From: Onthophagus taurus
Taxonomy: Eukaryota; Arthropoda; Insecta; Coleoptera; Scarabaeidae
DNA: 64,000 nt
Assembly: GCF_036711975.1 (NCBI RefSeq)
Contig: NC_091966.1
Location: 69,501-133,500, forward strand
Direction of reading: 5' to 3'
Part shown: in pieces, positions 19,201 through 59,013 of the stretch
Numbering within the stretch: the first letter of the stretch is position 1
Layout: every line of letters starts with the position of its first letter
Translations under genes and position numbers: made by a program
Notes under the pieces: generated by a model
Database searches by the model: none
The model's input: the letters and a program-made list of their open reading frames with translations, nothing else
Told to the model about the DNA's origin: nothing

Positions 19201-22013
19201 GAAAAGATACAAAAGATGCAAAGAAGGGAAAATGCAATATATTCTTTGAGTTCCTGAACAAACCAGCGATTCTTAAAAAACAACAACAATGAAAAATTAA
19301 ACATACCACTTATTCCTGTATCGGTAAAGTCTTCAGTAAAGCTAAACAACCAAATATCAGAGAGTTTAATATATACGTGTAAATCGCGAGTGATGAATGA
19401 AGGAAGAAATGTAGAGGGATGGGTATAGAACTAGTCGAACCGGCAACGCTGTATAGCCTAGTAGTGTTTCGGGACGAAAAGGATCTTGTGTATATGGCAG
19501 AGAAATTAACTGATGCGGCTTGATCATAAACAGAGCAAAACTCAATATTTTCATCCCTATGGCACTGTGTAGATAACAAAACAATTACAAGACCGGTTAA
19601 AGCCAGTAGAAATAGAATTCAAGAGAACAGAGTGCAAGACCAAAATGGTCCAATATCGACACATGGAAGATAAAAAGAGGACAATTACAGTGGTATGGCC
19701 ACGTTCAATGAATGGGTAATGAAAGAAACCCAAAAAAACGATGCATTGAAGTTCAACGGAGAGAAAATCCAGGGGATCTCTACTTGGGCATCGAGGATTT
19801 GAAAAACGATATTCGAAGGGAACCTGGCGCCAAGGGACTGAGAACACCGCAAACGCTAGAGGTTGACAATCGGAAGGCAGAAGACGCTGTAAACCGAATA
19901 TACAGAATCTATCTATCTAAATGACGTGCCCAAACTTCAGGGGGTGATTCTTTAGGTAATTTTAAGGGTACTTTAATATATGAACCATTGCCTCCCCTAA
20001 GGAGCTATACCCCTCCAAAAATGGCGGAAAATTTTGGTTTAATTTTTTTTTCTCAAAAACCATAAACGCTAGGAAAGTGAAATTTGGTTAATATGTTTAA
20101 CTCATAATAGGGTACGTTTTGACCCTATTTGTACCTTCAACCTACCCTTCTAAACTACTAAAAGTAACCACCCCCTTTACATTTTTGCTAAAATTATTTT
20201 ATGCAGATGGTAAATACATTAGAAATATTTTACATAGATAGATGAAAGTATCTTAAAACTTTTTTGTCTCTCTAAAATTTTTCCAAAAACGACTAATTTT
20301 TGAGAAAAAAAATAATAAAGCAAACTGCTCGTTAAACAACGCGGTTGTCGATCAAAAGTAAGAATGAATTTTTAATGAAAAAATCTTAGTAGGCTTTGCA
20401 ATCTTTGTCAGAAATATTTTTGACGTTTAAGTGTCAGTGTTTTTCTTACTATTATTATTGTTTTTCAAATTAATTTTTAATAAAGTTCTATTGCATGTAC
20501 GCTCGTTCACTCAACGTTTCAAAATTTTAATTAAAACAATAATAATAGTAAGAAAACCACTGACATTTAAACGTCAAAAATATTTCTGACAAAGATTGCA
20601 AAGCTTACTAAGATTTTTTCATTAAAAATTCATTCCAACATTCAATTAACAACTCTACAACTTAACAGTAGTTAATTATTTTTTTCTCAGAAATTATTAA
20701 ATTTTAGAAGAACATCAGAGAGACAAAAAAAGTTTAGAATTGTTTTATCTATATAACTGAAATTTTTCCAATGTATCTATTATAGAAAAAATCTAGGTTA
20801 CGTTTAGTAGTTTAGAAGGGTAGGTTGAAAGTACAAATAGGGTCAAAACGTGCCTTATTATGAGTTAAACATATTCCCCAAATTTTATTTTCCTAGCGTT
20901 TATGGTTTTTGAGAAAAAAAAATTAAACTAAAATTTTCCGCTATTCTTGGAGGGGTGTAGCTTTAGGGCTACACCCCTCCAACAACTACACCCATGGTTC
21001 ATACATCAAAGCACCCTTAAAATTGCCTAAAGAATCACCCCTGAAGTTTGGGCACGTCATTCAGATACACCTGTATATTTATGAAAAATTGATTAATCAG
21101 CTACATTTCATGTCACAGCGTAAATGCATGCACCATGTTAACTGTTTGCTATTTCTTGATGCTGCAAAATCGTTCATCAAAGTTGAACCCAACTTTGATG
21201 AACTTCATGAATTCTAAGCAACTTCGATGCAGTTCTATTGTCTCACTAATAATTTTATATAGAAAAATAATGTCAATACAACTCTGCTAGCACATTGATA
21301 TCGTCTTTTTAGTTAACATTTCAAAAATTTAGGCATACTTCATGTTTCGTAACATTTTGCACAATTATATAAATTTAGTTTTGTATTATTTGAAATTGTA
21401 ATGATAATGTAGTGCCCAAAATAATTATAAAAATGATGTCGATAATTGGAAATTTTGCAGTCATGATACAAGCAACCCATCTCCGATCCGCAACGCGGGC
21501 TTTCTGAAACGCAAGGTGTACATTAGTCACGTATAACGTTCGTACTAACTCGCAACGGTAATTATGTCACATTTGCTGAGCACCCAATTTCAGTTTGTGT
21601 CTGTATTTCGACCCTTTGCGCACCATTTTTTTTTACGTTAATTACTTGTCGTCGCTTAGTTGTGTTCTTCTTTTCTTCTTGGTGTGATAAATAAAACTTC
21701 ACCAAAATAAATCATACAAATTAATATAAATTTATTAAAGAAGAAAGAGCTTACTTCTAATAAAATATAATTTAAAACTGAAATTAATGACAAAAAAATT
21801 CTAAAAATAACATTTTTTTATCCTACTTTTATTTACTTTTATTTATACTACATTTTTAATTTTGAATCGTCATTTTTTTTATTTAGATCAGCAAGAAGGA
21901 CAACATCTTATCCAGTTGAAGAAAAGGATCCTTTAGAAAGAACGTTAAGTATGAGACGTTACCCTTTACCAAAGACGAATCTTCTCAAACTTGGCAATCA
22001 ACTGCCCGGATGA
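13277..22013 (+). CDS. rdgB: rdgB: membrane-associated phosphatidylinositol transfer protein (PITPNM family), 18 exons
   Basis: Class IIA PI transfer protein; the family exchanges PI and phosphatidic acid at ER-plasma membrane contacts to sustain phospholipase C signalling (photoreceptors in flies). Exons: 13277-13354, 13414-13546, 13598-13801, 13862-13995, 14054-14177, 14233-14382, 14422-14599, 15137-15387, 15437-15625, 15681-16067, 16129-16644, 16799-16924, 17320-17582, 17641-17895, 17953-18113, 18169-18349, 18408-18679, 21887-22013. These total 3729 nt in one frame (1242 aa), normal for insects. The PITP domain (about 1-260) starts [13 protein letters not shown] and includes [18 protein letters not shown]. 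An FFAT motif EFFDCVG (378-384) would bind VAP. The DDHD domain (about 625-800) has [12 protein letters not shown] and [13 protein letters not shown]. The LNS2 domain (about 1000-1185) has [19 protein letters not shown]. Oddities: a 39-nt intron (14383-14421) and a last intron of 3.2 kb holding a fold-back element. Confidence 0.95.
14788..14882. repeat. Dispersed hairpin repeat in an rdgB intron
   Basis: A palindromic repeat: AACATTCGGGTTTAG and CTAAACCCGAACGTT form a stem around a loop of about 23 nt, with outer TAGAACTA and TTCTAGTTCTA arms. It lies in the 537-nt intron between exons 7 and 8 and is the cleanest copy of the family. Confidence 0.65.
16960..17240. repeat. Repeat pieces with GCGC hairpin in rdgB intron 12
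   Basis: An inverted copy at 16963-17011 contains AATCTATCTTGGCCGGTGAA and a hairpin AATGCGCCGTAGC-AAACGGCGCATT. A direct piece at 17194-17227 reads GCGCATTGACCGGTCAAGAT then AGATTTGTCAAGCTGT. A third copy lies at 62160-62200. The family is unknown to me. Confidence 0.45.
19440..19920 (+). pseudogene. LINE reverse transcriptase C-terminal fragment
   Basis: In the frame ending at 19924 it reads [14 protein letters not shown], a stop, then [10 protein letters not shown] and [13 protein letters not shown]. This is the conserved RGxLxWxGHVxRM..ERxPK region that closes the ORF of RTE-like and related insect LINEs. It is degenerate, lacks the catalytic palm, and runs directly into the fold-back element. 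Confidence 0.65.
19915..21073. mobile_element. Fold-back (long inverted repeat) element, family C, copy 1
   Basis: Both halves are near-complementary from the ends (ATGACGTGCCCAAACTTCAG ... CTGAAGTTTGGGCACGTCAT) to a short centre near 20490-20525, so almost the whole 1.15 kb can fold into one hairpin. The right end gives CAGGTGTATCTGAATGACGT next to TA. The left end has lost the CAGGGTGTAT segment and abuts the LINE fragment. There is no open frame. A second copy of this family lies at 56462-57674. Confidence 0.85.
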
Positions 22014-26700: not shown

Positions 26701-29700
26701 GGTTACGTTTCCAAGATGTAAAATACTTGCGATTATTTTAAACATCGAGGTTTGTTCTTCGCTTGAAAATTCGGTTATGTTTAAAGCTTTACGGACTTCA
26801 TCGTAGCCTTTTTTATCATCTAACGAATCAACATGAGCGTTTTCCTTTAAAATAAATTTTGTTGTTATTAAAAAACAAATTATCGTCGGTTAAAAATAGA
26901 TCGCATGATGAGTAATATTCAAAACATATGCGACTTTATTACTTAACGTATAAACAAAAGCACTTAAACAAAAATTTAAAAGGGATACCTAACTTACGTT
27001 ATCATGAAGGTAATGATATTCCTTTGTTGATCTTTTTAACATTAAGCTTTCTAATTCTGAGTCCGATCCACCAGATAATAATTGATAAAATATATGGAAA
27101 TTTCTTTCACCAGCAACTTGATAGATCACCCTGCTTTTTTCCAATAAATAACTAAGAATTTCACCTCCAACAGGATCACCCTTAGTTCAAATGAAAAAGT
27201 TTATTGAAATTATTTTATTATCTTATTTAAAAAAATTACCAAAACATTAAATTGTACATCCATATATTTCCCAAATCTACTCGAATTATCATTTCGATTT
27301 GTTTTAGCGTTTCCGAAAGCCTCCAAGACCGGATTCGACTGTAACAATTTGTCCTTGACCCTATCGACTTCGCCCTTGTGAACCGTCACTTCGGCTATGT
27401 ACTGTAAGATTTTCTTCGAGGCTTCGGTCTTCCCCGACCCGGACTCGCCTTGAAATTAACGAGACCTCATGATATCATTACTATTTAAAACAGAATCACC
27501 AAAGAAAGATGACAAGAAAACCAACCCAACTTGACCCTTTTTTTTCTTTTAATTTCGCAAAAAGCCCATAAAACGACAAAAGTAAAATAAAAAAGAATGT
27601 CTAGTAATCTTTCTGGTACGTTTTATCGAATTTTATCTTAATTACCTGATATCAAAATGCATTGATCGATGTTTTCTTCTTTTAAAGATGTGTAAGCCGC
27701 ATCGGTTACCGCGAATCTAGAGTGAAATAAAAAAATTAAAATAAATCGACGAGAAGTTATTTTGAAGTAGGTAAATTTCTTTGGAATTTACGGATTGAAT
27801 ATTAAAATTTTTCGCACGTACTTGCACGCCATAAATCAAATGAATCTAGATTATCAATTATGTTAAGTATTTTTTGTAATAAATCATGCAACGTTTACAA
27901 TCTAAAAAAGTTATCTTCTCTATACAGGGTGTCTCAGCGAGACCGGTCATTAGACGTTTCTGTGGTTCTGGCCAAAATAAAAAATTGAGAATTCAGACTT
28001 AAGTATTATCAATTACGTTCTCTTCGTCTAAAATATTTTCAGATTTCTTGCACTTCCGGTTATACCGGAAGTCGCCACCTACTTTATTTTTTTAAATGGA
28101 ACACCCTGTATATTTTTACATATTTGGGTTTGTCTGTTTTGAAGGTTTATAAATAACTTTACTTTTTGCAATTTGATTCGGCCGTTCTCGAGTTATTCGA
28201 TTTTTTCTAGAAAAATCTGCTCCAGCGGACATTTGTTCAAAAAATCATAGAACACTCGATTTTTGAGATATCAATTTAGGATTCAGAACATGCTTAAACA
28301 ACATGATGGAGTATGTTTTGGTGCCAAGAACGGCTGTCTAGATCGTTTGGTCACTTTACTATGACACGTTAACTTTTCGAAATTTAGAACTATCATAACT
28401 TCATTTTCTTAAATGGCACCCCCCATATTTTATTACTTAGTCGTCTTCGGCGTATCATTTTACATCTTTTATACTCCATATGTCCTATGCCTAACATTAA
28501 TAGTTTGAGAAATAATTAGGGTTTTTTGAAAAATGCTCACATATCTTATCGATATTAACCTAGTGTGCCATGGAAAACAAATGTTTAATGACTTATTGAC
28601 AAACGTCAAAGTCTGATTTACGTTGTTTGATGCTTATGAGTCTGAAACCAGATAAAATGGATATTAATAACGTAAATAATGTTTATACAAATAAAGAAAT
28701 CCATAATTTATTTTTTGTGCACGAAAAGTGCGACAAAGTTCTTAGTAGAACTTGCAGAATGTTTAATGAAAATTATTCGCATTTACCTCCGATGACAAAA
28801 GATAAATATAAAAGAATAGAAGCAAATTTTTTGCATTTTGGACGAATTAATCAAGTGTTAAACTGACCAAAAAATGTAGTAGATAATGCAACGGAAGAGG
28901 TGAATGCCTTGGCTTATTTCGAGCCCAGTGCCAACACCTCAATTCGAGCTGCCAAAGAAGATCTAGGAATCATACTACGAACTTTGTCGCGCTTTTTATG
29001 CATAAAAAATAAATTAAGAATTTCTTGATTTGTGTAAATAGTACTTTCGTTATTGTTATCGATTTTAACTCTTTTCAGTTCTAATATTAAGGGACATAAC
29101 AGATAATTATTTGTTCACATGCATCAAGTAAACAAATGAGTCTTTAACAAGAACTCATTGAGAAGGCTTGTTTTTCATGGCACACTAGGCTAAATATCCA
29201 TATGATATGTGTGCATTTTTCAAAAAACCCTAATTATCTCCCAAACTATTAATGTTAGGTATGGGACATATGGGATATAAAAGATGTAGAATGAGACGCC
29301 GAAGACGACTAAGTAATAAAATATGGGGGGTGCCATTTAAAAAAATGAAGTTATGGTACTTTCAAATTTTGAAAAGTTAACGTGCCATAGTAAAGTGACC
29401 AAACGTTCTAGACAGCCGTTCTCGGCATCAAAACATACTCCATCATGTTGTTTAAGCATATTCTGAATCCTAAATTGATATCCCAAAAATTGAGTGTTCT
29501 CTGATTTTTTGAACAAATGTCTGCTGGAGCAGATTTTTCTAGAAAAATTCGAATAACTCGAGAACGGCCGAATCAAATTGCAAAAAGTAAACTTATTTAT
29601 AAACCATGAAAACAGACAAATCCAAATATGTAAAAATATACAGGGTGTTCCATTTAAAAAATTTAAGTAGGTGGCGACTTCCGGTATAACCGGAAGTGCA

Positions 29701-32700
29701 AGAAATCTGAAAATATTTTAGTCGAAGAGATCGTAATTGATAATACTTAAGTCTGAATTCTCAAATTTTTATTTTCACCAGAACCCCAGAAACGTCTAAT
29801 GACCGGTCTCGCTGAGACACCCTGTATATCCGTTGGAAGTAAATGTTTATTGGCAATTTTAAATTTCATTATTTTTTTATAAGACTTATTGAAGCAATTT
29901 CCGGAAGAAGATGAAAAAGTATTTGGATAAAGAAAAACATACACTGCGAATAGGTATCGTGAATATAAAATCACTCAACAATCGTGACCAAGAAATAATA
30001 GAAGAAATAGCTTAAGGAAAGAAAGGTAGATATTACAGCCCAGAAGACTGTAAATCTACAGAAGCGACCGAACTGTCTATTTGTTGTTCTCTAAATTAAA
30101 AAATATAAATAAATAAAATAAACATTAATTGAAAATGAAATGGTCTTCTTTCAATTATTCAGTTAATTCCTTGTCGCGAATTTAAAACAGATTCCATGAG
30201 ATTCTTCCACTTTTTATAAATCGACTCGGTTCGATTTATGTAATAGGAATAGAAAAAAAAATATTATTTTGCAATTAAGACATTCTAAATACAAGATGTG
30301 ATTACTGAATTGTACAATATTAAGTAATCATGGATTCATTCCAAAAGTTTTATAATCATAAAATTATACGTGAAAGAGCGTATTCAATCCTTTCTAACTA
30401 CTTCCTAAATGAAAGAGTAAAAATAAAAGATGTTATTGCTAAATTATTAAGCAGTTATTGGACTTTCAAACATTTGATGTAGATAATCAATTTTTTATAT
30501 ATGTTTTTAAAAACTGAAAATAAAAATTAATCTTTAACACTTGTAGTAAACATATTTGAAACAAAATTTCAATGGATTAGTAATTCTCGCAATATCAAAG
30601 ATTTTTTCATTAAAACATGTTTTTAATATATTTTTTTATCTTATAGATTAGATTATATTAGTTATAGTGTTTATAGAGTGTAAACTGCGAATTTCGAAAT
30701 TTATTTTTACTAGGTACTCAATCAAGGCTGTAACCCAAAAATTATTACTTACACGTGTGGAGAATTCTCAAAGAAATGCTTATTTTCGTATTCCTTTATT
30801 ACAGATGTCGTGTAAATATTTAATTCCTTGTAAGGATTTACTGAAATGACTACGGGTCCAATATATGTCTGAAATTAAGAAAAAAATTAATCAAATTAAG
30901 TGTGATGGCATTCTGAAAATATTTTAATCCCATTTAAACATCACGATTTAATCGATTTCCAATAATAGAAGATTACGCAGTTATTTTAATGAACGAGAGT
31001 ACTTATCTACCTCTAGATTATAATATCCAATCCACTTTCTACTTTTAGTAGTTGTAATAATATAACAGGTTTAAAATTTTAAATTACTTCAAGTACACTT
31101 TTTGTATCTATAAAAATGTTTTATCGGTAACAGTAAGTTTTTTACAACAATTTTATTGTAAATCATCTATTGACAAGCGTATTAAATCATAAACGAACTC
31201 GGAAACATAGAAATTCGAGTGTACGATATCGTATTTCGTTGAAGTTTTTTTATTTTTTTTTTCGTCGATAGGATAACTAAGGTTTCACGACATAACTTCT
31301 ATAGTATCGTTTCACTCGTCATTGTGGATTAAGGAGAAATTTAAATTGAACCAAAGTTTGAAACGTGTACGAGGGGGAAATTGTTTATTTCCATTGCTAA
31401 TACAGAAAGAGCGAAAGTTTTGCATGTCTAATTTTAAACATCATTGTCACGCTTATTCGATGACAAATACTACAAATGTATACTTGTTTTTACTTTCACA
31501 ATGCTATTTATCTTTTTAAGTACTCTTTTTAATAGAAGATAATGTTATAAACTTTAAGACACAACAGCTTGTTTATTTGAAAATTTTCGTCTTAACATTG
31601 ACGTCACTTGGTTTGGTCATGATTTTCTGAGAAATTATAAGCAATACATGCATTCTAGACGTATTAAGTTATCAAATATTAAACAACTCAACGGATATGC
31701 TAAATTTTTTTGTTTCGGGTATAAGAAACTGAATGCGTTTGAACTTGGACTTGAATCCGTGAATGGACGCCAACTATACAGACAGCTACAACCAGTAATC
31801 GTAAAAATATGGGAACAAGACGTGATCCCTGACGAATGGAAAGCAGGCATAATATATCCAACACATAACAGGGGTGATAAATTGAGGTGTTTTCACTATA
31901 GCGGGATGTCGCTGCGTGCAGAATAAAAGGTCCTGTCATTAATCCTCAATAACAAGCTGCAACCAATCATAGGGACCTTGCTTGGCGAATACCAGGCAAA
32001 CTTCAGGTAGGGCAGATCAACCACACAACGCTGAGCTTGGGAACACAACGTAGATGTTCACAACATCTTTGTTGATTTTCGTTAGGCATATGACAGCATA
32101 CACAGAGAACAGCTTTATAAGATCATGTATAAGATGGAGATTCCTGCCTAATTCTTTAGACTAACAAATATTTAGAGACTTATTTAAAATAACACAAGGC
32201 GTGAAACACGGAGATGGGCTAGTCTTGACTCTTTTCAACTTAGCTCTGAAGGAATTTGGGATCGCATTATAAAGAAATACCTTTGGAGAGCGAGGTATAA
32301 CCACGAAATATCCAACTATGAGACTACGGTGTGCGGGACCCGTTATCAGGATGGAAGATTGATAGCAGGAGTCGTCCAATTCAGGAGTCAACCAATTAGT
32401 TGTTTTTCTTTTCGCAGTTACATGTCCTAGAATTCTACCGCTTCTATTATTATTCTTCTAATGTTATTCTACTGTTCTATAATTGATCTAGTATGAGTAT
32501 TCATCAGTTACTGTTTGATTTCTTCCTCAAAACTTTCCCTCATTTTCACGTTTGTAAGGTTGTTGAAATTTATTCGTTTAGGATTTTGATACTTTGTATT
32601 GTTTCTTAAGATTATGTATCTGAATTTGCATTAGACTAACAGGCGGTCTAAGCCTCTACATGTTTTTACATCTAAGATGCCAGTAGCTACCCTTTTTATC

Positions 32701-35700
32701 TATTAAGACGTGATCTAGTTAGGTTGGATTTATTGTCACATTTTTGCTTGCGGTAAAATTTATTAAAAATTCGCCATTTCCGCTTGTTTGATCCTGTTAC
32801 GATCTATAATGTTTCCTATTCTCCTAGAAATTGTGTTTATTTTCGTATTTTAGCACTCACGTCCCCTAGAAAAGTTTGTTCCTTATCTTCGTCTTCTTGT
32901 TTGTCTGTTCAAGAATGTCAAATTAAAGAATCCCATACATATACGGGTGACCAAAAATGGGTGTTATCAACGTATTAATACCTTATCATGTTGAGTGAAA
33001 TATATTGCACGATAAAATGTTTACTACAAATTGATGTTTAATATCATCTTTGAACATTCTTTCTTTCTAACGTAATTTTCTGCTTATCTTGGGCAATCTC
33101 CACTCAACGCAGTGACTGTTTATTTATAATTGATTATTTATTTTTATCTGGTGGGCGCTGGTTAACAACAAAATCTTGGTTTTACGTTTCCATAAACTTT
33201 ATTATTAATTTCACTTAAACTATACATATAAATTGCGATTAGTTATATAGGGAGCCTTGCTCCGCGTGTGTTGAAGGGGTACTGTTTCGGTGGGTGTTAA
33301 ATCGAAGACTGAATGACTGATACGAGTTGAGCTCGCAGGCTCCTTCTTTATTTTAGGTCATAACTAAAAACCCTTACCTAAACACCGAAATACCCCAACG
33401 CATTCCCACACTTAACTCCACCCAATAAATAATGCGATAAAAGACTCTAATATTGCGACTCGAGACACTTCAAATCTAGACTAAACAAATGAGGCGATAC
33501 AAATAAATCCAATATAAATGAACTAATATAATATAAACCTATCAAATCTAATATAAATTAACCAATATAATATAAAATCTAACATGCTCCCCGCCTTGAA
33601 AGAACTACCTTTCAACAAATAAAAACACAAATTAACAATAATGACTCAACATCAAAATGTATGAAAAAAAATCGAAAAATTAAATTTACACGACTGAGTG
33701 ATTAATCGCGCGCACACACAATTCACGCAATCACATCAATGAAACCCAAGACTGCTATTCTATTGGTAGTGGACACATCAGGCCCTTTTGATGATCCTAT
33801 TTGGTGTGCGTAGCGTGCAATTGTATAATTCGGCCCTTAAGACACTTTAAGGCAGGCAAATTATCTTTCTTCATTGACACCAATCGGCCCAACCTTAAGT
33901 TAGCGTCACCCGTAGACCAGTCGTAGTACCTCTGCAGCTCAGACAAATATGCTTTGGACCACCTGGTCCAAAAATGTTGTTGAATCTGCTGGACGCGATG
34001 GAACTGCGATAAGCGGTCTTCATTGTTGCGACTCAAACCTGGATCTGGTGGGAAAGTAAGTTTCCCACCAATTAGAAAATGTGCCGGGGTTGATAGAGTC
34101 GTATGGTTGGGATCGGTGGATAATGGGGTTAATAGCCGGGAATTAAGGATGGCCTCAATCTGAACAAGTAATGTATACAAATTTTCGTACGTAAACGAGG
34201 CATTGCCGGTAACCCGACGTAAATGAATTTTTACTGACTTAACACCGCCTTCCCATAATCCACCAAGGTGTGGCAAGTTAGGGGGAGTATTCAACCAACT
34301 ATTAGAAGCGTTTTCAATCGGTGTTTTGAGTTCGCTAGAGTTATCAATCAAGAACAGACTTAGCTCCTGTAATTCGCGATTACCACCCACGAACTTAGTT
34401 CCGCTATCAGAGAACATTCGATTCGGTTTCCCGCGCCTAGCTGAAAGTCGCCAAAGAGCGGCAATAAAACACTCTTTACTAAGTTCGGTTGGATTGATTA
34501 AACAGGCACGGTACATTTTAGGTATCTCCACGGTAGCTACGTGCGCGTATTCCCGAAACCGTTTCAAGGCACTGAACAAGTCAGGCTGTAATATGGGTCC
34601 CACCATCTGACAATTATTAAGCGAATATCCCATTGACGTAGGACATGATGCATCGAAAACGATCCTTGTGATGGCACTATTTTCATTTAACACTCCGTGG
34701 TGTGTTATGTAACAACCCTCGCGCGTATCAACAATCTTTCTCATTTGACCAAACTCCAAATACCCTCGCATAAATGCATGATATTGCTCACCGAATTCAC
34801 GATTTTGTTTGCATTTCCGCTCGATACCCATTAAACGATTTTCCGCGGCTTTATACGATTCGCCCAACCAATCTAAACCTTTCTTTAGCGGTGTCGAAAC
34901 AATGAATCGTCCGTCTTCTGCACGTTTAGTGGTTTTATAAAAATGATTTTTGCAAAATGTTTCATTTTTCGATGAGTGAACTAACCCTTCAAACTCCTCG
35001 ACTTCCCGAAACCGCGCCAACTGCTTATTTATTACGGAATTGTCATCCTTATAAATTAAATTGCACCGCACCGAATGTGCCGCGCTCGCTTGTATCGGCC
35101 CCGAAACGATCCACCCCAAACGGGTGTTTTGCATGATAGGCCCTTTTGCAAGTTTGATTTGCCCAACGCATAACAAATTCCAAAAATAATCAGCCCCGAC
35201 CAGCATATCTATCTTATCGGGTTTATTGAACAATGGATCCGCCAAGCGAATGTGTGTAGGTATTTTTAAAGTGTTAGCGTTTATTTCAAAATTGGGTAAA
35301 TCATTCGCGATTGTTGCTATAACCAAGCAATTAACCTTAAGTGAAAAATCCGTGCAGTGTGAATGTATTCGCAATGAACAAGTACTCGTTATTGTTGACT
35401 GTGTTTGATTTATTGTTGCTACATTAACGTTTGTTGCTGTTCTAGCCAACCTTAACCGTTTGCAAGCTTCTACCGAAAGAAAACTACTTTGACTGCCCGG
35501 ATCCAAGAGTGCGCGTAATGAATGTTTTTTGTTATGTCTATCGAATGCGTGAACGGTTACGGTGGAGAGTAAGATGTTTGAATGATTTGCATGCTGTGCG
35601 AAATTTAGACTGTGTGCTTGGGTGGATGTCGTTGGTTGTGGTGGTGAATCTGAGCGATCGTGCGTCAAATGAAGTAAGGTATGATGACGAGAATTGCACC

Positions 35701-38700
35701 GTTTACAAGAGCTCGAACGGCATTGTTTAACAAAATGTCCCGACCGAAGACAATTCATACACACCTTTAATTGTTTGACCCGGTCTATACGGCCCTGAAC
35801 CGTAAGTTTAGTGAAATTTGAACATTCCTGTATGTAATGTTCCCCATTGCAGTTTACACAACGCTTAACACCCGAATTAGCAACCAAAAACGTTTTTGAT
35901 TTCGGTTTTGATTTATCGATTATCCGCTTACCCGAACCGTTTTCCAAAGTTTCCAATAAATCAGCGCGTTCTTTCAAAAACCCTAACAAATTTTCTAAAT
36001 TCGCTTTGTTTAAACCGGACTTTTTCCTTTCCCACTCCCGATTGGAATCAGCGTCCAATTTCGACACGGCTAAATAAATAAGTAGCGTGTCCCAATTATC
36101 CGTAGGTTCATTTAGTGCAGCTAACGCGCGCAGATGTTTACGAAAGTCGTCAATAAAACTTCGAATCTGCTGTGGATTATCACCCGAAACCCCTTCAATT
36201 TCGAACAATGCCTTAACGTGATTATGAATTAATATCCGCGGGTTATCATAACGCTCGCGAATCAACCCCCAAGCGACTTCATAGTTAGAATTTGTCAATT
36301 CTAAACTTTCGATAACCTGACGAGCATTACCGGTCAGTGCCGACAGTAAGTAATGAAATTTTTGAATGTCGTTGATCATTGGGTTGTTATGAATTAATGA
36401 TTCGAAAATGTCTCTAAACCCTAGCCATGCGTCGTAACCACCGTCAAACTTTGGTAAATCTATAACCGGTAGCTTTACATGTTGATCCGGGGAAGGTCCT
36501 ACAATGAACGACGAATCGGCGCATATATTTCTATTTGTCAAAATTCGCTTAGCTTTAGCCGTATTTGCGTAAAAACTCGCCTCGAATGTCTCCCTCTCCG
36601 CGTTTTGTGACTCGCCATCAACGCTTAACAAATCTATTTCACCCTGAATTTCCTCGAACTCATCGATAAGATTAATTGCCCGATTGTATCTTTGTTCTAA
36701 CTCTAACGAAAGTTCCTGATTAATACCGCTTTCTCTGATATTTGATTCAAATTTTATTACAAATTTCGCAAAATTCGTGAGTTTGCCCTTGACAATACCT
36801 CGTTTTTTAGTTAAATTTTCTGACTGACTCATGATCGCGATTGACAAGTTTCAGATTGAGAACGATAAAGGAGAAAGTAAAGGGACTTACGGTACTTGTT
36901 TCAATGGCGTTGGTCGCTTCCAGTACGTGATGGACGAATTTCTTCTATCTCGAATTTGTTGGGAGTTGCATGAAGTAGAAATTCGGTCTTCGAACACTCC
37001 TGGCGAATGTTCTCCAAAAAGCTGCGTAACTGGCGGGCCAACGTTGTCGAATTTAATTTAATTTTACACGCCGCATCAAGGAACCGAAAACACTTAAATC
37101 TTCTTATATTTTCCCCATCCGGCTCGAAGGACCATTTATGATTATTTATTTTTATCTGGTGGGCGCTGGTTAACAACAAAATCTTGGTTTTACGTTTCCA
37201 TAAACTTTATTATTAATTTCACTTAAACTATACATATAAATTGCGATTAGTTATATAGGGAGCCTTGCTCCGCGTGTGTTGAAGGGGTACTGTTTCGGTG
37301 GGTGTTAAATCGAAGACTGAATGACTGATACGAGTTGAGCTCGCAGGCTCCTTCTTTATTTTAGGTCATAACTAAAAACCCTTACCTAAACACCGAAATA
37401 CCCCAACGCATTCCCACACTTAACTCCACCCAATAAATAATGCGATAAAAGACTCTAATATTGCGACTCGAGACACTTCAAATCTAGACTAAACAAATGA
37501 GGCGATACAAATAAATCCAATATAAATGAACTAATATAATATAAACCTATCAAATCTAATATAAATTAACCAATATAATATAAAATCTAACAATAATAAT
37601 TGAAACAAATATCTTCTACCGAGAAAAAATTCCAAATTCTCGATCAGATCTTAAAATTTCCTGTTTACGTGAGACTAACCCAAAAAGTTACTTTTGGAAA
37701 TTATATAAAAAACAGATGCTGTGTAATTGTAAAAAAATCTTGTACTAATTAAAGTTTTATCATTATTTTTGTTATAATAATAACTTTTTCGTTCCGTAAT
37801 AAACGTTCATTCCCTCTTTCGTTTACTCTTTTAAGTACGTTGGTGTTAAAGATCTAAAACCATAATAATGAACCGTTCACCTCTCTATATATAACCTCAA
37901 GCAACTTAACCAATGTATTCGTAGTGAAATAAGATGACGATACGATCTGGAGAAAGTAATAGAAAGAATAGAAGACGTAGCGTCTCATTTCTTTCGGTTA
38001 ATTCTTATTGAATTGGGTATTAACGGACCACCTGATAAATTGTTGTCTTGGTCTTACGTATGTGTGTGCGAACGGATGGCATATGGCTTGGCGCGAAGAC
38101 CATATCGGCGATGATTTCCTTGTCCACCCAGTTTAACGGCATAGAACGGCCGGAAGTCGGCCGTTCGGTTGTGTGACGAGATTGCCAACTTAACGATACC
38201 GGAAAATAGGTTTACTCGATATGATGATCACCAGAAACTGATGCATATTAATGAATACAACGGTTTTTTCTAATGTTTACAAGAAATAAAAATGTTTTAT
38301 TATTAAGAATATCTTTTGTGAACTTTTTAATCTTGAATAAACGATGCGATTGTGTCATACATTGACTCATCAACAGAATACTCTTTTTTAGTCCGCAATG
38401 ATGAATAATTTCATTTAACTTTTATTTTTCTACCTGCATAAAGTTTCAATGAAAATTATATTTTATTTTTATACTTACAACAGTGAGTCAGTCTGCAACA
38501 ATTTTTTAATCTGAATAAAATAATCTCTTTTTTGAGACTCAAGATTTTAACGATAAATAATTCCTTGAAAATAACTTAGATAAACATTCAAATGCATTTT
38601 ATTATAGTTTAGATCATCTTATCATGTATTACATATTTACATTGAATAAATATTTGCAATACACATCATCTCTATTATTATTCTATTGCGTAAATAGCGT

Positions 38701-41700
38701 TTAGCCCTTTTCAGACTTTTCTTTAAGTAGCTTCCAACCATATTATACAACTAATCAACAACTACTTTAGAACGAAAAAATTAAGATCCATCAACATAAA
38801 CATTTGAAAATCGTTGTCGTAAAGCTATTTAACGGTTTTTCATTATCTTTAATAGTTTCGAAGTTTGTTTTAATGATTTTTAACCGTTTCTAAAATTTCA
38901 GCCGTTTCTAACGATTGTCACCTGCTCCGACCTGTATATTTTCATCGGCATTGTGCTATTTACATGTAAATTAATTAATGGACTGCACCCTAATCGCTGC
39001 GAGCATCACGGCAGATGGGCAAAGTCGACCTTTTGGCACGAAGTTGTGCCACGATGAATCGAAATTGTCTATCTTAAGCCGGATAGACAATGCCATGGAA
39101 ATTGATTTATGACTTTTGAAGAGGATTATTAATTACTTTTATCGAAATGAGGATAAAATAAAATTATTTAGTTTTTAATAAAAAATAACTTAATATTTAT
39201 TTATTTATTTTTTGTATGTACTTTTGTATTTTCCGGGAAATATAAATTGAATATACAGGGTGTCCCGTTAAGCGTACGGAGCGGCTGTATCTCTAGAACG
39301 GTAAGGCCAAGAGGTTTGGGAAAAAAATCCTTATAAGCAAAGTGACCAAGAGAAATAGCTGGAAATTATTTTGAAGTTCGTAATTCGACCGCTAGGGGGC
39401 GTAACTGCCATTGAGAAACATAAAGTTGCCGCTATCTCAGAAACTTAGACGATGAGCTATAACTTTGACACCATCATTTAATAGCTTGGATAATACCGCA
39501 TCGCTTTTGTTTTGCGATATTTCTCATATCTGTCATAATAAGAGAGGGGGAGGCCAATGCGTTTTCATATGTTTACATTTTAATATCTCCTAGACCATTC
39601 AACCGAATTGAATGTTTTCGGTGTTGTTTGAAAAAGCATTTTATGCTCTTTTTAAAGATATTTTCAGTAAGACCGTCTGCTTTAAAACAAATGAGCTAGA
39701 GGACGTTATCTGCAGCGATTACTTATTTTTGTGATTTTTAAAGAAAAGTTAAATGGAACGATACTATTTACTTCACAGACCCTTAGTCACCTTAAAATTT
39801 GCTAAATTTTAGTGAAAACCGCATCTCGATATCGCCACCCGTTCTCGAGTTATAGAAGAAAATGTTAAAAACTCGAGTGCCATCAATCGGATCCAGTTAC
39901 CTCATCGAGAAAAACAAATCACATTATCATGGTAACTGTAAACATGTCATTTACTAACGCAGAAGCGTATGATAGAGCGTATGATGATTTATTTTCAATG
40001 TTTCGAACACGATGCAACTGCATGGCAAAAATGTGCAATGCAATTACGACAACGAAAGACATTTTTCTCTAGAAGTGTTTTTAAGATTACGGAAAACTGG
40101 CAACGTATAGCCCATTCAGACGTCTCTATGAATTCGTAAATCAGAGTTCTCAAGAGAATAATATCTCCACCACGTTGTTTTACATCAGGCCTTAACAGAT
40201 ACCGATTATGATAACAGACTGAACTATTACCATTGACTTTTAAATATGATTTGGGCAAATCCAAACCTTTTATCACAAATGCTATGGATGCATGAAGCAT
40301 CTGTCCACAAGCTGATGTAAACTTGCATAATATGCATTCTTGGTTCGAGCAAAACCCACATTGCTTTCACCCCTTTATCTATTGGGTAGACTAAACGACC
40401 TGACTTTTCAAGAAAAACCAATAACCAGGGAAAATATGACAAAACACTAAATACCAGTAAAAACGTGTCCAGGGAAGAGACTTAGCAGCGCTTTTTTTTC
40501 GTCGAAACTAGATTAAATAAATGCATCGAGGTTTATGTAAGACATTTCGAACATTAGTGAGCTATTTTTGCCAAAAATTTAAGTTATTCTAAGTGTTTCG
40601 GTTTATTTTGTTTTATTATCACTGTTGATGTTTCATTGATCCGTTGGCTTTTCAACACGCCTCAAAAGTAGTTTCGAAGCAGTTCTAAGCTTGGATAAAG
40701 TGTGGAGGAAGGTTCTAGATACTAAAATTTTTGTTGTCACTTATTTGTTTCCTAAGGTAACTTGATCCGATTAAGATATACGAATTTTTAACATTTTCTT
40801 TTATAATTCGAGAATGGATGGAGATATCGAGATGCGGTTTTCACTAATATTTAGCAAATTTTATGGTGATTAACGGTCTGTGAAGTAAATAGTACCGTTC
40901 CATTTAACTTTTTTTCAAAAATCACAAAAATATGTAACCGCTGCAGATAACGCCCTCTAGCTTATTTGTTTTAAACCAAGCGGTCTTACTGAAAATATCT
41001 TTTAAAAGAGCATGAAATGCTCTTTCAAACAAGACCAAAAATATTCAAATCGGTTGAATGGTCCAGGAGATATTAAAATGTAAACATTTGAAAACGCATT
41101 GGCCTCCCCCTCCCTTATTATGACAGATATGAAAAATATTGCAAAACAAAAGCGATGCGGTATTATCCAGGCTACTAAATGATGTTGTCAAAGTTATAGC
41201 TCATCGTCTAACTTTCTGAGATAGTGGGAATTTTATGTTTCCCAATGCAGTTACGCCCCCTAGCGGTCGAATTACGAACTTCAAAATAATTTCCAGCTAT
41301 TTCTCTTGCCCACTTTGCTTATAAAGATTTTTTTCCCAAACCTCTAGGCCTTACCGTTGTTGAGATACAGCCGCTCCGTACGCTTAACGGGACACCTGTA
41401 CACGTATACTTTTTCAAATTATGAAAAATTCATTGAAATAATGAACACCATCTATAAATTAAATAGAAGAAGATTGCAATAGCTTCCATGATTTAGGTGC
41501 AAGCAATAGATAATCAGAAGTACAGGTTATATGGTGACAGTATGTACTTAAAAATAGTCTTCCATTACCGGGTTCCTCCTTCGTCTACCAATACGTCTAT
41601 CTAGTTATCATCTCCGACATCTTTCAACATCATCTTGTGATATCCTGTTAATATTCCTGCTATATCTCGCAAACGAGTAGTAATCAGACGAAACAAACTT

Positions 41701-50891: not shown

Positions 50892-50897
50892 TTTATT
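50892..50897 (-). terminator. Polyadenylation signal of PPIH
   Basis: AATAAA on the minus strand about 10 nt past the stop. Confidence 0.55.
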
Positions 50898-50906
50898 AAT
50901 TAAATG

Positions 50907-51575: not shown

Positions 51576-51854
51576 TTTTTTTAAATTTAACACTTAATAA
51601 TAATCTTATTGATTAATATGAGACGATTAAAGCGGTTAGATTAAATTGTTGAGGTTATGTTTGAAATTGTATTGAATTTGACAGTTCATGTAAATAGATT
51701 TAAAAATGTAAATTAATTCGTTACATTTATATTTTGGAGATATTGATTATAATGATTTGTAATAATAAATTATTTGTTATTATAATTGATTCATTTATAA
51801 ATAGAAATAATAAAAAACGGTGATGTAAATTAAGTTGTATAACTTTTAATAATT

Positions 51855-51860
51855 TTTATT
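51855..51860 (-). terminator. Polyadenylation signal of the proximal ACOX gene
   Basis: AATAAA on the minus strand about 45 nt past the stop at 51904. Confidence 0.45.
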
Positions 51861-51903
51861 TCCGATGTAATTATGATATAAAAATATAAATAAATAATTT
51901 AAT

Positions 51904-54382
51904 TTAGAGTTTATTCTTCTTTAAATAATCCCTATCAACAATTTCTTTCCACCAAGTTGGTTTAGACATACTTCCGGCAGTTCTCAAAATATTATTCTCT
52001 AAATTTTGATAAATTTGTCCATTTGAGGCACCGATAACACTTCGAAGAAGAAAATCTGGTGGGGCGATTGCGTCTACTAGAGCTACAGCTTCAGATTTTA
52101 AATCTTTACACAACAATAAAACAGTTTCTTGTATTAATGTAACAGGTTCGGGGCCGGATGCAAATCCACCTTGATACAAATGTGATAAAAAGTGTTTTTC
52201 TAAATTGTAAACTCCAAATAGTTTTGCTAATTTCGTTAGAACTAACGATATCGGCTTGTCTTGTACTTTAATTATGTTTTGTTTCATTAAATTTAAAGTG
52301 AAAAGTTGAATGTATGCGATTCCTAAGCTTCTTGAGTAATAAACTTGGCTGCTATTTTTAGCTGTGAATTTATCGCTTCCGGAGTTTTTAAAGTTTTGGA
52401 ATCTATCATAAGTGGATTTGATGAGGTAAATGTTAATCCACTCGTATATTTTTATGATATCTAAAAGAAAAAGATTAAATTTTGGGACGATTTACATTAT
52501 TAAGGGTTAAATACGGTCAAGGTTGTTAAAATCATCCACAGTTTTTGCAATCCATTTCTTTGCGATAATATCCATGCCAGTTCCAAGAAAATCTAATGAA
52601 CCTAACGGCGATGAAAGTTCTGTTCTATTTAAAATGCTTGGCCAAAACTTCATCAGAACATTTGAAGCCTGTTGAATCAAAACATGATTTTCTCCATCAT
52701 ATGTAACACTTGGATCATGATCGTTTCTTATATCTGATATGCCTGAAGCTAAAATCATATGTAAATTTAGCTTTTGAATTTATTTATATTAACCTTTAAG
52801 GTATCCATGTCCGGCGCAAGCTTCTCGACATTCTTGAATTCCATCTCTTGCAGACCAGGAGCAAACAACCTTAGCAGCAGCAGAAAGTGCATGCGATTCC
52901 ATAATAAGGATAATAGGTACACTTCCACCTGAAAGAGCTTCTTTAGTCCAAGCTGAATGCTCCAAATATAATTTATCAGCCAACATTTTTGTTGCATAAG
53001 CAACGGCAATATGAGGAATGAGTCTATGTTGATGTAATTGGTACTCAATTATTGGCAACTCCTCTTTGCTACCATCAGGTCCAAATTGTCTACGAACAGC
53101 ACCATATCTTATAGCAATCGTAATCGCTTTCGTTAATAGAAGATGAGAAGAAAAAACCACACCCATTCTCATATTTGTTAAACTACCAAGTACTGTTTCT
53201 TTGCCTTTATTTGAAGCAACATATTCACCATCATCTGTTACATCACCGTATTTATTTAAAAGATTATCTTTAGGGATTCTATAGTTGTTAAACATGACGA
53301 AACCGTTATCGGTTGCGTTTACCCCGGCTTTTTCGCCGAGATCGCCTATGATGATTCCAGTGTAAGGTTCCAAAGTTTTTGGACATCTCAATGGTACCAA
53401 AAAGCAATGTAAACCGTGGTTTTTTCCATCGGGCGTTATTAAATGAGCGAATAACGTTGCAATCGAAGCGCTCTGACCTAAATTTCCAGACCAACATTTA
53501 GCCGCTTCGAAATCTGGGGTATTTATTACAAATTCTTTGGTATTAACATCGTATGTAGCTGTTGTTCTCATTCCACTTGTATTAGTTCCATGTCCAATTT
53601 CTGTTAAACAAAATGTACCTATCATCTAGAATGTTGTAAAAAATTAGTTGAAAAATCTATAAATATATCTTAATTTTACTTTATAATTTAAAATATCCTG
53701 TGCATATTCTAAATGTTTCTCAGTTCCCATTGATTTAATAACCAAAGGAACCATAAAGTACGCCATTAAATATTTTAATGTGACTCCATTATCAAAGTTT
53801 AATAATATCGAATTTACGGCTATGTTAAGATGGTCATTGTCGTGAACGGGCGCGAAACCTTTTATTCTTTTGAAAGCGTTTAAATATTTGTAACCGTCTC
53901 TTCTGATCTCATCGAATGTTCTTGATTTCAAACTTAAGTGGCAATCGGGGTTTGAATAAATTTCTGTGTAGATATCTTCCTATAAACAAGCAAAAAATTG
54001 TTAAACAAAAAGTTGTATCAATTTCAAGAGAATTAAAAACATTTTCAAGAATTTTCTAAGATTTCTTATTATGTTTAAGAATTAATATCTTAAGAACTAA
54101 ATCTATACTTTCAATTAGATATGCTGATAATTTTATAATTATTGAAATCCCGATTTGTTATGATTTTTTGAAAATGCTTGAAATTAATTGTTTGTTCCGA
54201 AATATGAGAGTGCTAAGTAGTTTTTAACAGATTTTCATTAAATTTTTACTCACCATAAATTTGATCACTTCTTCCGGATAGAAGAAAGTCATCATTTTCT
54301 TCCAATCAAACGAAGCTGATTTTCTGTAGCCACTTAAAGGGCCGTTGGGAAAATCCTTTAACAGTGCAATTCTATTACGCAT
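51904..54382 (-). CDS. Peroxisomal acyl-CoA oxidase, ACOX3-like, tandem copy A
   Basis: FAD enzyme of the first step of peroxisomal beta-oxidation (acyl-CoA to trans-2-enoyl-CoA plus hydrogen peroxide). Five minus-strand exons: 54382-54254, 53979-53680, 53625-52794, 52748-52515, 52460-51904; 2052 nt, 683 aa. Motifs: [11 protein letters not shown] (acyl-CoA dehydrogenase/oxidase signature), the flavin-side segment [11 protein letters not shown] and [14 protein letters not shown], which carries the expected catalytic Glu region. Then [16 protein letters not shown]-type sequence (here [13 protein letters not shown]) resembles ACOX3 more than ACOX1. The C-terminus NKL resembles a weak PTS1 signal. 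The ATG at 54382 ([12 protein letters not shown]) aligns with copy B, but the frame is open upstream to a Met at 54535. Copy A lies 255 bp downstream of copy B. Confidence 0.92.
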
Positions 54383-54602
54383 CGTTTCGACTATGCCTCC
54401 ACTTAAAAAGTAAATGAACGCTACGTTTGATTTAATTTTTTTAAAAATTTCTGAGTGGGAATGATAAGTCAACTTATTATGAGCAAAGGTCATTGAGATA
54501 AATAGAATCGGTAACCTTGCTTGTAACCTAAACATGTTTTTGTATACATAGGTGGTTTTCTAGTTATTATTCATAATGCCGAAATTTTTGGTTAAAAAAA
54601 AG

Positions 54603-54608
54603 TTTATT
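54603..54608 (-). terminator. Polyadenylation signal of the distal ACOX gene
   Basis: AATAAA on the minus strand about 30 nt past the stop at 54638. Confidence 0.5.
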
Positions 54609-54637
54609 AAATTTCTATTACATCGTTTTTGTTTAAT

Positions 54638-57600
54638 TTAAAGATTTGATTTGATATAATTTCTATTAATAACCTCTTCCCACCAAACAGGTCTGGACAT
54701 ATTTCCTGGAGATCTCATGAAACTATTGTATAGATGTCGATAAACTTGTCCATCAGAATGTCCAATAACAGACTTCAAAGCGAAATCGGGCGGTGCAATA
54801 ACATCCACTAAGGATACTGCATCACGTTTGAGTTGTTTGCACAAATCTAAGATTCCCTCTTGTATTAAAGTAACAGGTTCAGAACCGGAAACAAATCCAC
54901 CTTGATAAAGTGTCGATAAAAAGTGTTTTTCCAAATTATAGAGACCATATAAAGAAGTTAATTTAATCAAAACGTCCGTTATCGAAGCATCCGGCGCTTC
55001 TAACGCTTTCTTTTTCATTTGTATTAAAGTGTAATGTTGAATGTAAGCAATACCCAAACTTCTTGAGTAGAAAATTTGACTTTCATTTCTTGCAGTAAAG
55101 GAATCTAACCCTTGATTTTTTAAATTTTGTAATCTTTCAGCTGTAGCTTTAATCAAATATACAATAACCCATTTGAAAACATCGTTTATATCTGAAAAAA
55201 AGTACTTTAAAGTGATTGTTACAAATAAATAATTTAAATAATTATTACAGTCCACGTTGGTGGTGTTTTTAATTGAAGTTGCGGTCCATTTTCGATTTAA
55301 AATTTCCAAACCATTATTGAGGAAATCCATGGAATACAACGGGGATATTATTGGAATTCTTTTTTGAATGTTAGGCCAGAGTTTGATTAAAATATTTGAA
55401 GCTTGTTGGATCAAAACGTGATTTTCACCATCGTAGGTCATATTGGGGTCATTTTCATTTCTTAAATCGGATATTCCCGACGCTAAAAAAAATTTTTAAA
55501 CTGTTTTTTCATTAAGAATAACAAAGAAATAAACCTTTAAGGTAACCATGTCCAGCACAAGCTTCGCGGCTTTCTTGGATAGCATCTCTTGCGCACCACC
55601 CAGAAATCGATTTAGCAGCTGTTGATAAAGCATGAATTTCCATCATTAATTCATATTCAATTTCTTTTTGATTATTTCCATTGTATACTTCCATGACTTC
55701 GATGTTCAAGACTTTCGATAAGATTTTCATAGCAAAAGCGGTTGCTAGATGAGGAATCAATCGGTGTTGATGCAATTGGTATTCTATTACGGACATTTCT
55801 GGACCATCTTCAGGTCCGAACTGTTTTCTGACAGCACCGTAACGAATCGCAATGGAAATCGCCTTTATAAGATAACTACTGGCGACATTAACAACGCCAA
55901 ATCTCATCCCGACCAAATTACTTAGTGTCGCAGCCATCATTTGGGTTGGATCTTTGGCCGAAAAGACGTATTCCCCAGAATCGGTTACATCAGCATATTT
56001 ATTGAGAAGACTATCTTTGGGAAGACGGTAATTATCGAAAATAACGAAACCGTTATCTATTCCGTTTAATCCAGCCTTTTCACCCAAATCGCCGATGGTT
56101 ACTCCAGAGTAAGGTTGTAAAGTGTTTGGATTTCTTAGAGGAACCAAGAAGCAGTGAATTCCTTGTTGGGTCCCATCGGGTGTTATTAATTGAGCGAAGA
56201 TTATTGATAAAGTTGCACATTGTGCCAGTCCACCACACCAACATTTTGCAGCTTCAAAATCTGGTGTTTGTAAAATAAATTCTTTCGTTTCAGGATCATA
56301 AGTTGCCGTGGTTCTTATACCGCGAGTGTTTGTTCCATGACTAATTTCAGTTAAACAAAATGTTCCAATATGCTGTAAACAAACAAATGTTAAAGAAAAA
56401 AATTATGAGAAAAAAGTTATGTGTTTTTGAGTAATTCGTAAAATTAGAACAAGCAAATATACAGGGTGTATCTGAATGACATGCCCAAACTTCAGGGGGT
56501 GATTCTTTAGGCAATTTTAAGGGTACTTTGATATATAAACCATGGGCGACTTGGGCTCCCCTAAGGAGCTACACCCTTCCAAAAATGGCGGAAAATTTTG
56601 GTTTAATTTTTTTTTCTCAAAAACCATAAACGCTAGGACAACGAAATTTGGGGAATATGTTTAACTGGTAGTAGAGCACGTTTTCACCCTATTTGTACTT
56701 TCAACCTATCCTTCTAAACTACTAAACGTAACCACTCCCTTTACATTTTTGCTAAAATTTTTTTATGTACAGGGTAAATACATTAAAAAAAATTACATAG
56801 GTAGATGAAAGTATCCTAAAACTTTTTTGTCTCTCTAAAATTTTTCCAAAAACGACTAATTTTTGAGAAAAAAAATAATAAAGCAAACATTGCCCGTTCA
56901 ACAACCGGGTTGTCGATCAAAAGTTGGAATGAATTTTTAATGAAAAAATCTTAGTAGGCTTTGCAATCTTTGTCAGAAATATTTTTGACGTTTAAATGTC
57001 AATGGTTTTCTTACTATTATTATTGTTTTTCAAATTAATTTATAAATAAAGTTCTACCGCATTTACGCTCGTTCACTCGACGCCGACGTTTCAAAATTTT
57101 AAATAAAACAATAATAACAGTAAGAAAACCACTGATATTTAAACATCAAAAATATTTCTGACAAAGATTGCTAAGCCTGCTAAGATCTTTTCTTTAAAAA
57201 TTCATTTCAACTTTCGATTAACAACGCTACAGCTTAACAGTTAGTGTCTGCTTAATTAATTTTTTTCTCAGAAACTATTAACTTTTCGAAGAACATCAGA
57301 GAGGAAAAAAAGTTTTTGAATATTTTCGTCTATCTAAATAAAATATTTCCAATGTATTTATCATCGTCATAAAAAAGATCTAGACAAAAAGTGAACGGGG
57401 ATGGTTATGTTTAGTAACTTAGAAGGGAAGATTGAAAGTACAAATAGGCTCGAAACATGTCCTATTATAAGCTAAACATATTTCCCAAATTTCATTTTCT
57501 TGGTGCTAATGGTTTTCGGGAAAAATAAAGTAAACCAAAATTTTTCGCCATTTTTGAAGGGGCGTAGCTCCGCAGGGGAGTCGAAATCGCTGATAGTTTA

Positions 57601-59013
57601 TATGAGAAAGTATCCTTAAAATTGCCTAAAGAATTACCCCCTGAAGTGTGGGCACGTCATTCAGATACACCATGTATATTTCGTTTAATAGATTATCGGT
57701 GTTATTTTTAGATTGTTTATATTGAGCGGATATTTTAAGCAACAACTCTAAAAGCCAAAAACCCATAATTTGTTATACATATAATACAGAACAAAATATC
57801 GAATAAATAAATGCTCATGGAAGTTCCACATTGGTGTCTTAACCAATGAAAATAGCTGAGGAAAAGAACTTCGACATTCTCAACATATAGGTGTAACATT
57901 CACATACAGGCTTTTGGGGATAAATACAACTTCAAAATAGTTATACGAAAAGGAGGAAATACGAAACACCTAAAGAACTCTCCGGTCAGTGTCGAAATCC
58001 CATCAAAAGCTGAACGTTGAAATCAGTAATATTAATTTGAAGATGACTTAAGATAGACAAAATTAGATGAAAAATGCGAATAAGTAGTGGAGACATTCAT
58101 TTAGTAACCCGGACTTGAGATTGACATCAGAAATCAATCCACAGTGAAGTGCGCTGAAAAGCAGATGCGGAATAGTCAGCAAGGAAACAGGACACGGTAA
58201 ATTAAACTAACAATAAGACAACACGCAGCAACTTCACCTTCGGTAGGAGCCGGATGGATTGATTAGCACAGTGAACATCGATGTCGAACAAATCACATTT
58301 TAAACAATTTAAATACTTCCTGTAACGTATTGAATGGAAAAGATTTAACTGAAACTGTTGCGCTTAACTAACTGAAAACTAAATTACAACTGAAATTCAC
58401 TTAGATAGCGTTAAAAGCATTCGTTAATTGTTCGCTAAGATGTGCTTTTACTCCCCGGTTTCATTAACAAGATTATATGATATACAGCACTTTACGTTGT
58501 AATTAAGTGGTTACACTTACCCTTCCGGTTTGATAATCTTCTACATATTTTTGGTGTTTTTCTGTTCCTTGATTTACAATAGCAATTGAACATAAAGCTG
58601 TGTGAATGCCGATTTTTTGAGTAACCGCCGTGTCGATGTTTAATAACACATCTCCTGCATACATATATTTTGTGTCGTTGGTTATTGTTAGACTATCCAT
58701 TTTAAGCCTATCGTATCTTTTAATAGCGTTAATTCTTTGCATGGTACGTTTTCTTACTTCGTCTAATGTTGGGGTTATAACTTCTGGTTGAAATATCGGT
58801 TCTACTGCTAGATCGTTGTAGAGATCTTCCTATATTTTGTAAAATCATAAAAAAATTGTTGTTTTAGGTTAATAATCTTACCATCAACTTTATTCCTTCT
58901 TCAGTGTCGAAATAAATCCTCATTTTTTTCCAATCAAACGATGCTTGATTTCGGTAGGCATCTAATGGTCCCTTTGGAAAATCCTTTAAAATTTTTATTC
59001 TATCGTTGTCCAT
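54638..59013 (-). CDS. Peroxisomal acyl-CoA oxidase, ACOX3-like, tandem copy B
   Basis: Paralogue of copy A with the same five-exon structure and phases: 59013-58882, 58829-58521, 56372-55535, 55482-55249, 55191-54638; 2067 nt, 688 aa. It starts [16 protein letters not shown]. Motifs: [36 protein letters not shown] and [13 protein letters not shown]. It ends IKSNL, a possible non-canonical PTS1. Exon 4 is 234 nt in both copies. Intron 2 (58520-56373, 2.1 kb) has been expanded by a family C fold-back element. Intron 4 (55248-55192) is 57 nt with no stop in frame. A donor AAG|GTGAGT at 59470-59464 and an acceptor CTCAG near 59036 suggest a separate 5' UTR exon. The exact substrate cannot be told from sequence. 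Confidence 0.92.
56462..57674. mobile_element. Fold-back element, family C, copy 2, in ACOX copy B intron 2
   Basis: A 1.2-kb element. The ends are CAGGGTGTATCTGAATGACA and, reverse-complemented, CATGGTGTATCTGAATGACG. TA flanks both sides (56460-56461, 57675-57676). The arms are complementary nearly to the centre (about 57040-57090), so there is almost no loop and no open frame. It is closely related to 19915-21073 in the rdgB intron and keeps the left tip that the other copy lost. Confidence 0.88.
57677..58520. other. Rest of ACOX copy B intron 2
   Basis: No exon seen. A slightly GC-richer patch (57840-58260) has broken open frames and may be an old transposon relic, but no domain is recognisable. 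Confidence 0.4.

Follow-up and report, generated by a model that had tools for sequence, protein, structure and literature searches.

Palindromic element families A, B and C in an Onthophagus taurus genomic window: probable non-autonomous fold-back relatives of rosa/DD41D-type Tc1/mariner transposons

In a 64,000-nt stretch of the Onthophagus taurus genome (hereafter the window; G000:C1:69501-133500), we identified four long palindromic elements that fall into three families, A, B and C. These are probably non-autonomous families of the fold-back type, with long terminal inverted repeats (TIRs) and resembling miniature inverted-repeat transposable elements, that belong to the rosa/DD41D-type Tc1/mariner transposons with a DUF4817 transposase. 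In this interpretation one end of each progenitor was replaced by the inverted other end, and the product was then mobilised in trans. The clearest case is element A, in which the right arm repeats the left end of the element in inverted orientation. The genome comprises 290.8 Mb in 33 contigs.

An earlier note on the window had described long inverted repeats, a TA target site and a common tip at four places. Self-alignment of the window showed inverted repeats at all four and provided the following arm measurements.

27925..29824: element A, a 1900-bp fold-back with TA at 27923-27924 and 29825-29826 (self-alignment and TA rule)
27925..28747, plus strand: left arm of A, containing the outer end and the start of a DUF4817-like segment; 87% identical to the right arm
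28973..29824, minus strand: right arm of A, the left end copied inverted, including the start of the first helix-turn-helix remnant (HTH1) from 29036 downwards
39256..41398: element B, a 2143-bp fold-back with arms at 39259-39902 and 40755-41396
56462..57674: element C, a 1213-bp through-palindrome (77.5%)
about 19903..21073: element C', a relative of C with a degenerate left tip, also a through-palindrome (77%)

The arms of A (823 and 852 bp) are 87% identical over 852 columns and 94% identical over the outer 636 nt, and enclose a loop of 225 bp. Those of B (644 and 642 bp, 91.6% identity) enclose a loop of 852 bp. C and C' are 84% alike (blastn), and the window self-alignment (blastn) revealed no cross-similarity between A, B and C, in agreement with the description of three families with unlike arms. 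TA flanks and CAGGGTGT-type tips are features of A, B and C; the motif TACAGGGTGTNNC with no more than one mismatch occurs eight times in the window against 0.23 expected, and seven of the eight correspond to element ends or to inner tips of A. The tips proved less uniform than had been described: the left tip of C' is ruined and reads TATACAGAATCTATCTATCT, its left edge lies at about 19903 and not at 19915, the right tips of B and of C' are each one base short, and the right tip of C is CATGGTGT.

The coding remnant in A identifies the source of its right arm. On the minus strand this arm encodes the HTH1 start again (19 residues), and a probable second helix-turn-helix (HTH2) stops where the right arm starts. 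Because the HTH1 start is present in both arms, the right arm is inverted self-sequence and not captured sequence. We also compared the arms between copies. The sample comprised 11 copies of A, out of 17 distinct ones, and 17 copies of B, out of 20; six A copies and the B copies of L059 and L066, for which both ends were not recovered, and the short B copy of L068 were left out. Left and right arms separated in the arm trees in all 11 A and all 17 B copies. The median identity between the two arms of one copy was 92.5% for A and 91.4% for B, and that of the same arm between copies was 96.8% and 98.3%, respectively. This clustering by arm side means that A and B each go back to a single palindrome-forming event; the arms drifted apart and the elements were then amplified, and neither tree shows a sign of later arm homogenising. 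For C, the two arms are 80% identical and copies are 96% identical (two copies), with 93-97% for 39 other copies among the best 40 candidates. The earlier proposal that hairpins are repeatedly built from new sequence is therefore not supported, in view of the self-derived right arm of A and the single formation of the A and B palindromes. Of the features of a fold-back origin, all three are present in A, inverted arms and a single progenitor only in B, and arm and copy identities alone in C.

A comparable history is described in the excerpts of PMC4678618 for Rpmar49, a mariner of Rhodnius prolixus that gained long TIRs when one end was replaced by the inverted other end, and that was amplified from one progenitor (citations of this and of the two other papers below refer to excerpts of their text). 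Rpmar49 is 970 bp long with a TIR of 221 bp, and Rpmar17 is 922 bp long with a TIR of 57 bp (PMC4678618). Both are mariner lineages, whereas the families described here have arms of 640-850 bp, DUF4817/DD41D-like remnants and 76 to 459 exact ends. By analogy, we infer that in each of the three families one end of an element gave way to a copy of its other end in inverted orientation, most simply through aborted gap repair or template switching. The defective molecule would then have been mobilised in trans, presumably by the transposase of other elements, and would have inserted at TA until it reached tens to hundreds of copies.

Exact end strings occur in the genome 459 times for A (24 bases), 286 times for B (26 bases) and 76 times for C (26 bases), and reversed-control end strings had no genome match. 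Full copies were taken from the best 40 scored candidates per search, and their counts are lower bounds. A script rule applied to window A, B and C and to the loci with both ends recovered, 31 copies altogether, found TA at both flanks of 25. Of the six failures, L044, L047, L054 and L061 do have TA, which the rule missed because the left tip is shortened by one base; L057 has CA on the right, and the right end of L069 is damaged. The 25 positive copies include L070, the right tip of which is not recognisable. Joined flanks yielded 13 spanning matches, including one self-match, which came from seven copies, and empty-site alignments were inspected in detail for three copies, all of family B. 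Comparison of L065 with L071 gave a clean empty site with a single TA, as did that of L061 with L024 when a one-base boundary slip is allowed; the comparison of L057 with L037 was blurred by AT-rich gaps. These two clear empty sites demonstrate that TA is duplicated upon B insertion. This Tc1/mariner trait is thus seen in empty sites for B, and for A and C in the TA flanks alone.

Several further observations concern individual copies and their distribution. Copies of B and of C lie back to back at L056:2770-2800, separated by one TA. The C copy at L081 contains a palindromic insert (897-2612) with 733-bp arms (98.8%); about 21 bp of C recur on either side of this insert, and its reading frame appears Penelope-like by eye. 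On contig C1, to which the distribution counts are confined, the 70 exact ends of A include 37 at less than 1 Mb from a contig end (3.2 expected), compared with 14 of 44 for B (2.0 expected) and 1 of 10 for C (0.5 expected); with close ends collapsed, 28 of 52 A places lie within 2 Mb (4.7 expected). Family A is therefore strongly crowded at the ends of this contig, B less so, and C, with its 10 places, not; the window itself begins about 69 kb and finishes about 133 kb into this contig.

The link to a DUF4817 transposase comes from remnants in A and B. Because Pfam gave no DUF4817 or DDE match on these remnants, we used DUF4817 profiles built from the same genome, profile-profile comparison (hhalign) and controls of 100 shuffles. 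The segments concerned are the following.

28684..28863, plus strand: HTH1, a DUF4817-like helix-turn-helix remnant in an 88-aa open stretch (28600-28866)
28867..28995, plus strand: HTH2, a probable but marginal second helix-turn-helix remnant that follows an in-frame stop and is interrupted close to the arm junction
29505-29606, plus strand: frame in the A right arm with a score of 19.7 against the DDE profile, third of 308
40296..40391, plus strand: DDE-core remnant of B, with a 14-residue motif at 40320-40361

Over 55 columns, HTH1 scored 27.8 in L003, a sibling copy, and 21.0 in the window copy, where the highest of 100 shuffled scores were 16.9 and 15.2, respectively. The DDE segment of B scored 23.4 in the window copy (highest shuffled score 17.7) and 22.3 in L068 (18.8), and its nearest protein is that of the L024 kind of transposon described below (phmmer E 0.006). 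Among 308 comparisons of open reading frames with profiles in the window copies, the B DDE segment ranked first and HTH1 second. Hmmsearch on individual A copies gave weak matches only (lowest E 0.022, and 9.5 for the window copy), and the profile-profile comparison did better. The HTH2 stretch fits the second helix-turn-helix of the transposases in place, order and frame, and the in-frame stop ahead of it is found in all 11 A copies; its score of 17.7 in L046 is just above the highest of 100 shuffles (17.3), and the 14.3 of the window copy is reached by 2 of 100 shuffles. The A-arm frame in the list above exceeded all 100 shuffles (best 16.3). A frameshifted candidate for the DUF4817 end in B (39988..40107, plus strand) was rejected because its score of 13.7, against 13.6 for the highest of 100 shuffles, is not significant, and in C the profile comparison found no coding remnant. 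No purifying selection was detected on the HTH1 frame of A, since the 3 synonymous, 22 nonsynonymous and 1 stop change among 11 copies compare with a neutral expectation of about 3.4 nonsynonymous to 1 synonymous. The suggestion that two families hold remnants of one transposase type is thus upheld in part: HTH1 in A and the DDE segment in B score above all shuffles with the own-genome profiles, A retaining only the binding part, B only the DDE part, and neither both.

The same genome contains many DUF4817 transposons, and among the 150 scored of 2937 candidates several have open frames of 340-394 codons. Six kinds have readable ends (L009, L016, L022, L024, L030 and L075), with TA before related tips that include CAGGGTGA, CAGGGTTCC, CAGGTGTCC, AAGGGTGTC, AAAGGTGTC and AAGGGTCTT, and with different inner repeats. 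The catalytic pattern matched in 19 sequences, which came from five of the kinds, L030 being the exception; in all 19 of them, 41 residues separate the last two D residues. The L024 kind (1.9-2.3 kb, 114-bp TIRs, frames of up to 372 codons from stop to stop) resembles B in its tip, CAGGGTGA...CATACGGAGC, and is a DUF4817 and DD41D element with the nearest protein to the B remnant, but it is not a fold-back, and its end likeness to B is suggestive only: the inner repeat TACGGAGC resembles that of B to a degree reached by 0.65% of shuffles, second of 45 pairs and not significant after correction. Beyond this genome, the TIR of rosa DD41D element Apismar4.1 is AAGGGTGTCTCAAAAAGAACGCC (PMC5490172), to which the L016 kind aligns closely. 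Rosa/DD41D elements (Crmar2, Apismar4; DD41D/VS) use a TA target, carry the tip AAGGGTGTCTC... (Apismar4.1) and encode a DD41D transposase, and PMC8472432 assigns DD41D/VS to Tc1/mariner. The AGGGTGTC-type tip of rosa/DD41D is present in A, B and C, in C as AGGGTGTA. Unlike A, B and C, rosa elements carry a gene for transposase and end in TIRs that measure about 27-32 bp; their short TIRs are not matched by arms of 640-850 bp or, in C, by a palindrome spanning the whole element. Of the DUF4817 helix-turn-helix and DD41D core, A retains HTH1 with the marginal HTH2, B the DDE part only and C neither, and the catalytic spacing is not readable in the remnants.

An alternative, which we consider possible and rather unlikely, is descent from autonomous long-TIR (LTIR/Lsra) DD40-41D transposons with internal deletion only later. 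The LTIR clade lies next to rosa, includes the Lsra transposons and is described with TIRs of more than 460 bp, the arms of its aphid members being close to 460 bp (PMC5490172), a length matched by the A and B arms; C is palindromic throughout. A resident counterpart also exists, as L071:1876-4235 is a 2.4-kb element with 590-bp arms (89%) that enclose a broken DUF4817 transposase and resembles the aphid kind, and the layout of B, with its remnant in the loop between non-coding arms, fits this model well. However, the LTIR/Lsra elements are autonomous in layout and have other tips, whereas the window copies and the copies read here hold only remnants; the two LTIR tips in the excerpts (TCACCAATTT... 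and AATGTGTCAA...) lack CAGGGTGT, as do the L071 arms. The A arms also include the start of the DUF4817-like segment, for which internal deletion alone is insufficient.

The earlier note had favoured one transposase lineage whose recognition is confined to the CAGGGTGT tip and which time and again turns unrelated sequence into hairpins. This seems improbable to us. It would account for the tip and TA common to A, B and C and for the low likeness of their inner repeats, the best pair being B and C (reached by 22% of shuffles) with A-B and A-C outside the 12 best of 45, and also for a second, different CAGGGTGTTCC tip within each A arm. That inner tip reads TACAGGGTGTTCC, faces outwards and lies at 28098..28110 (minus strand) in the left arm with its mirror at 29639-29651 (plus strand); the TA-CAGGGTGTTCC form is about 164 bp inside the real tip and has 415 occurrences genome-wide. 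We rejected a candidate hybrid mini-element that would consist of the outer 184 bp of A, with TA and CAGGGTGT at both ends: the inner tip has 431 matches with the A inner flank and 415 with the outer side, which gives no indication of an independent element of this type. This speaks against tip-only recognition, as do the self-derived A arm and the likeness of the B inner repeat to that of the L024 kind. Related tips occur on six distinct DUF4817 kinds with unlike inner repeats, so the tip is the mark of much of the DUF4817 clan and not of a single lineage. It is not unique to this clan either, because Rpmar26, placed among the DD34D-type Rhodnius mariners, starts with CAGGGTGTG (PMC4678618). 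That one and the same DUF4817/DD41D transposase, with a relaxed requirement for the inner repeats, mobilises A, B and C alike is, in our estimate, very improbable; if it did, any hairpin with the 8-bp tip would be a substrate, and the extra outward CAGGGTGTTCC tips in A would be usable as alternative ends. Classical Foldback/Galileo-type elements (P superfamily), which have a target duplication other than TA and another transposase, share the overall hairpin shape with A, B and C, but we discount a relation to them, and hence independence from mariner, almost entirely, given the TA duplication that already contradicts it for B and the DUF4817/DDE-like remnants.

The end-replacement reading within the rosa/DD41D-type clan is thus the one we prefer, and a number of points weigh against it. 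The remnant signals in A and B are moderate, Pfam named nothing on the A stretch (window copy and two siblings) or on the B segment (sibling copy), HTH2 is a marginal candidate, and the DDE-like frame in the A right arm may be a chance match among 308 or a further remnant. Because the arms of B and C show no coding, their origin is proposed by analogy with A and Rpmar49, and C would belong here by its tip, TA and shape. One side of the B tree split has a support of 0.55 (1.0 on the other). A seventh DUF4817 kind (L013/L014/L018), exemplified by the long-armed L071, has long arms and lacks the GGGTGT tip. Finally, no autonomous partner with A, B or C arms was found in the three longer A spans and one longer C span opened among those listed, all four being rearranged or carrying other inserts and none a DUF4817 transposase.

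The four elements had been described as intronic, which holds to differing degrees. The window contains genes for myosin, PITPNM, acyl-CoA oxidase, PUS10 and cyclophilin (Pfam), as well as NDUFV2, for which the nearest structure chains are 8b9z and 8esw, presumably from Drosophila. Element A is flanked by a myosin-head exon at 27210-27455 (Pfam) and by 30752-30874, recognised as myosin by eye only. Element C lies between an acyl-CoA oxidase exon (55512-56402, Pfam) and the stretch 58503-58829; Pfam did not match this stretch, and its reading as an N-terminal exon comes only from resemblance to the adjacent paralogue. C' lies after PITPNM exons (Pfam) and has only a candidate exon downstream, and B was placed in no gene. 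Other residents of the window include two tandem acyl-CoA oxidase-like stretches (51898-56402, DNA identity 66%), of which Pfam matched the second only; a long terminal repeat element (33131-37592) with two identical 454-bp repeats and a 1017-aa frame that appears BEL/Pao-like by eye, with the middle gone; and an ordinary, broken Tc1-like transposase at 7979-8927 (HTH_Tnp_Tc3_2).

Our analysis suggests that A, B and C combine an end replacement like that of Rpmar49 with transposons of the rosa/LTIR kind, and would thus represent a large example of a known process. We found no description of fold-back families of the DD41D clade in the open-access literature by title or abstract opening, a weak sign of novelty. 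Element A, with the start of the DUF4817-like segment still in both arms, is a clear example of fold-back origin. As long hairpins that, in family A, are crowded at the ends of contig C1, these elements may also have an influence on recombination, on genome assembly and on the production of small RNAs.

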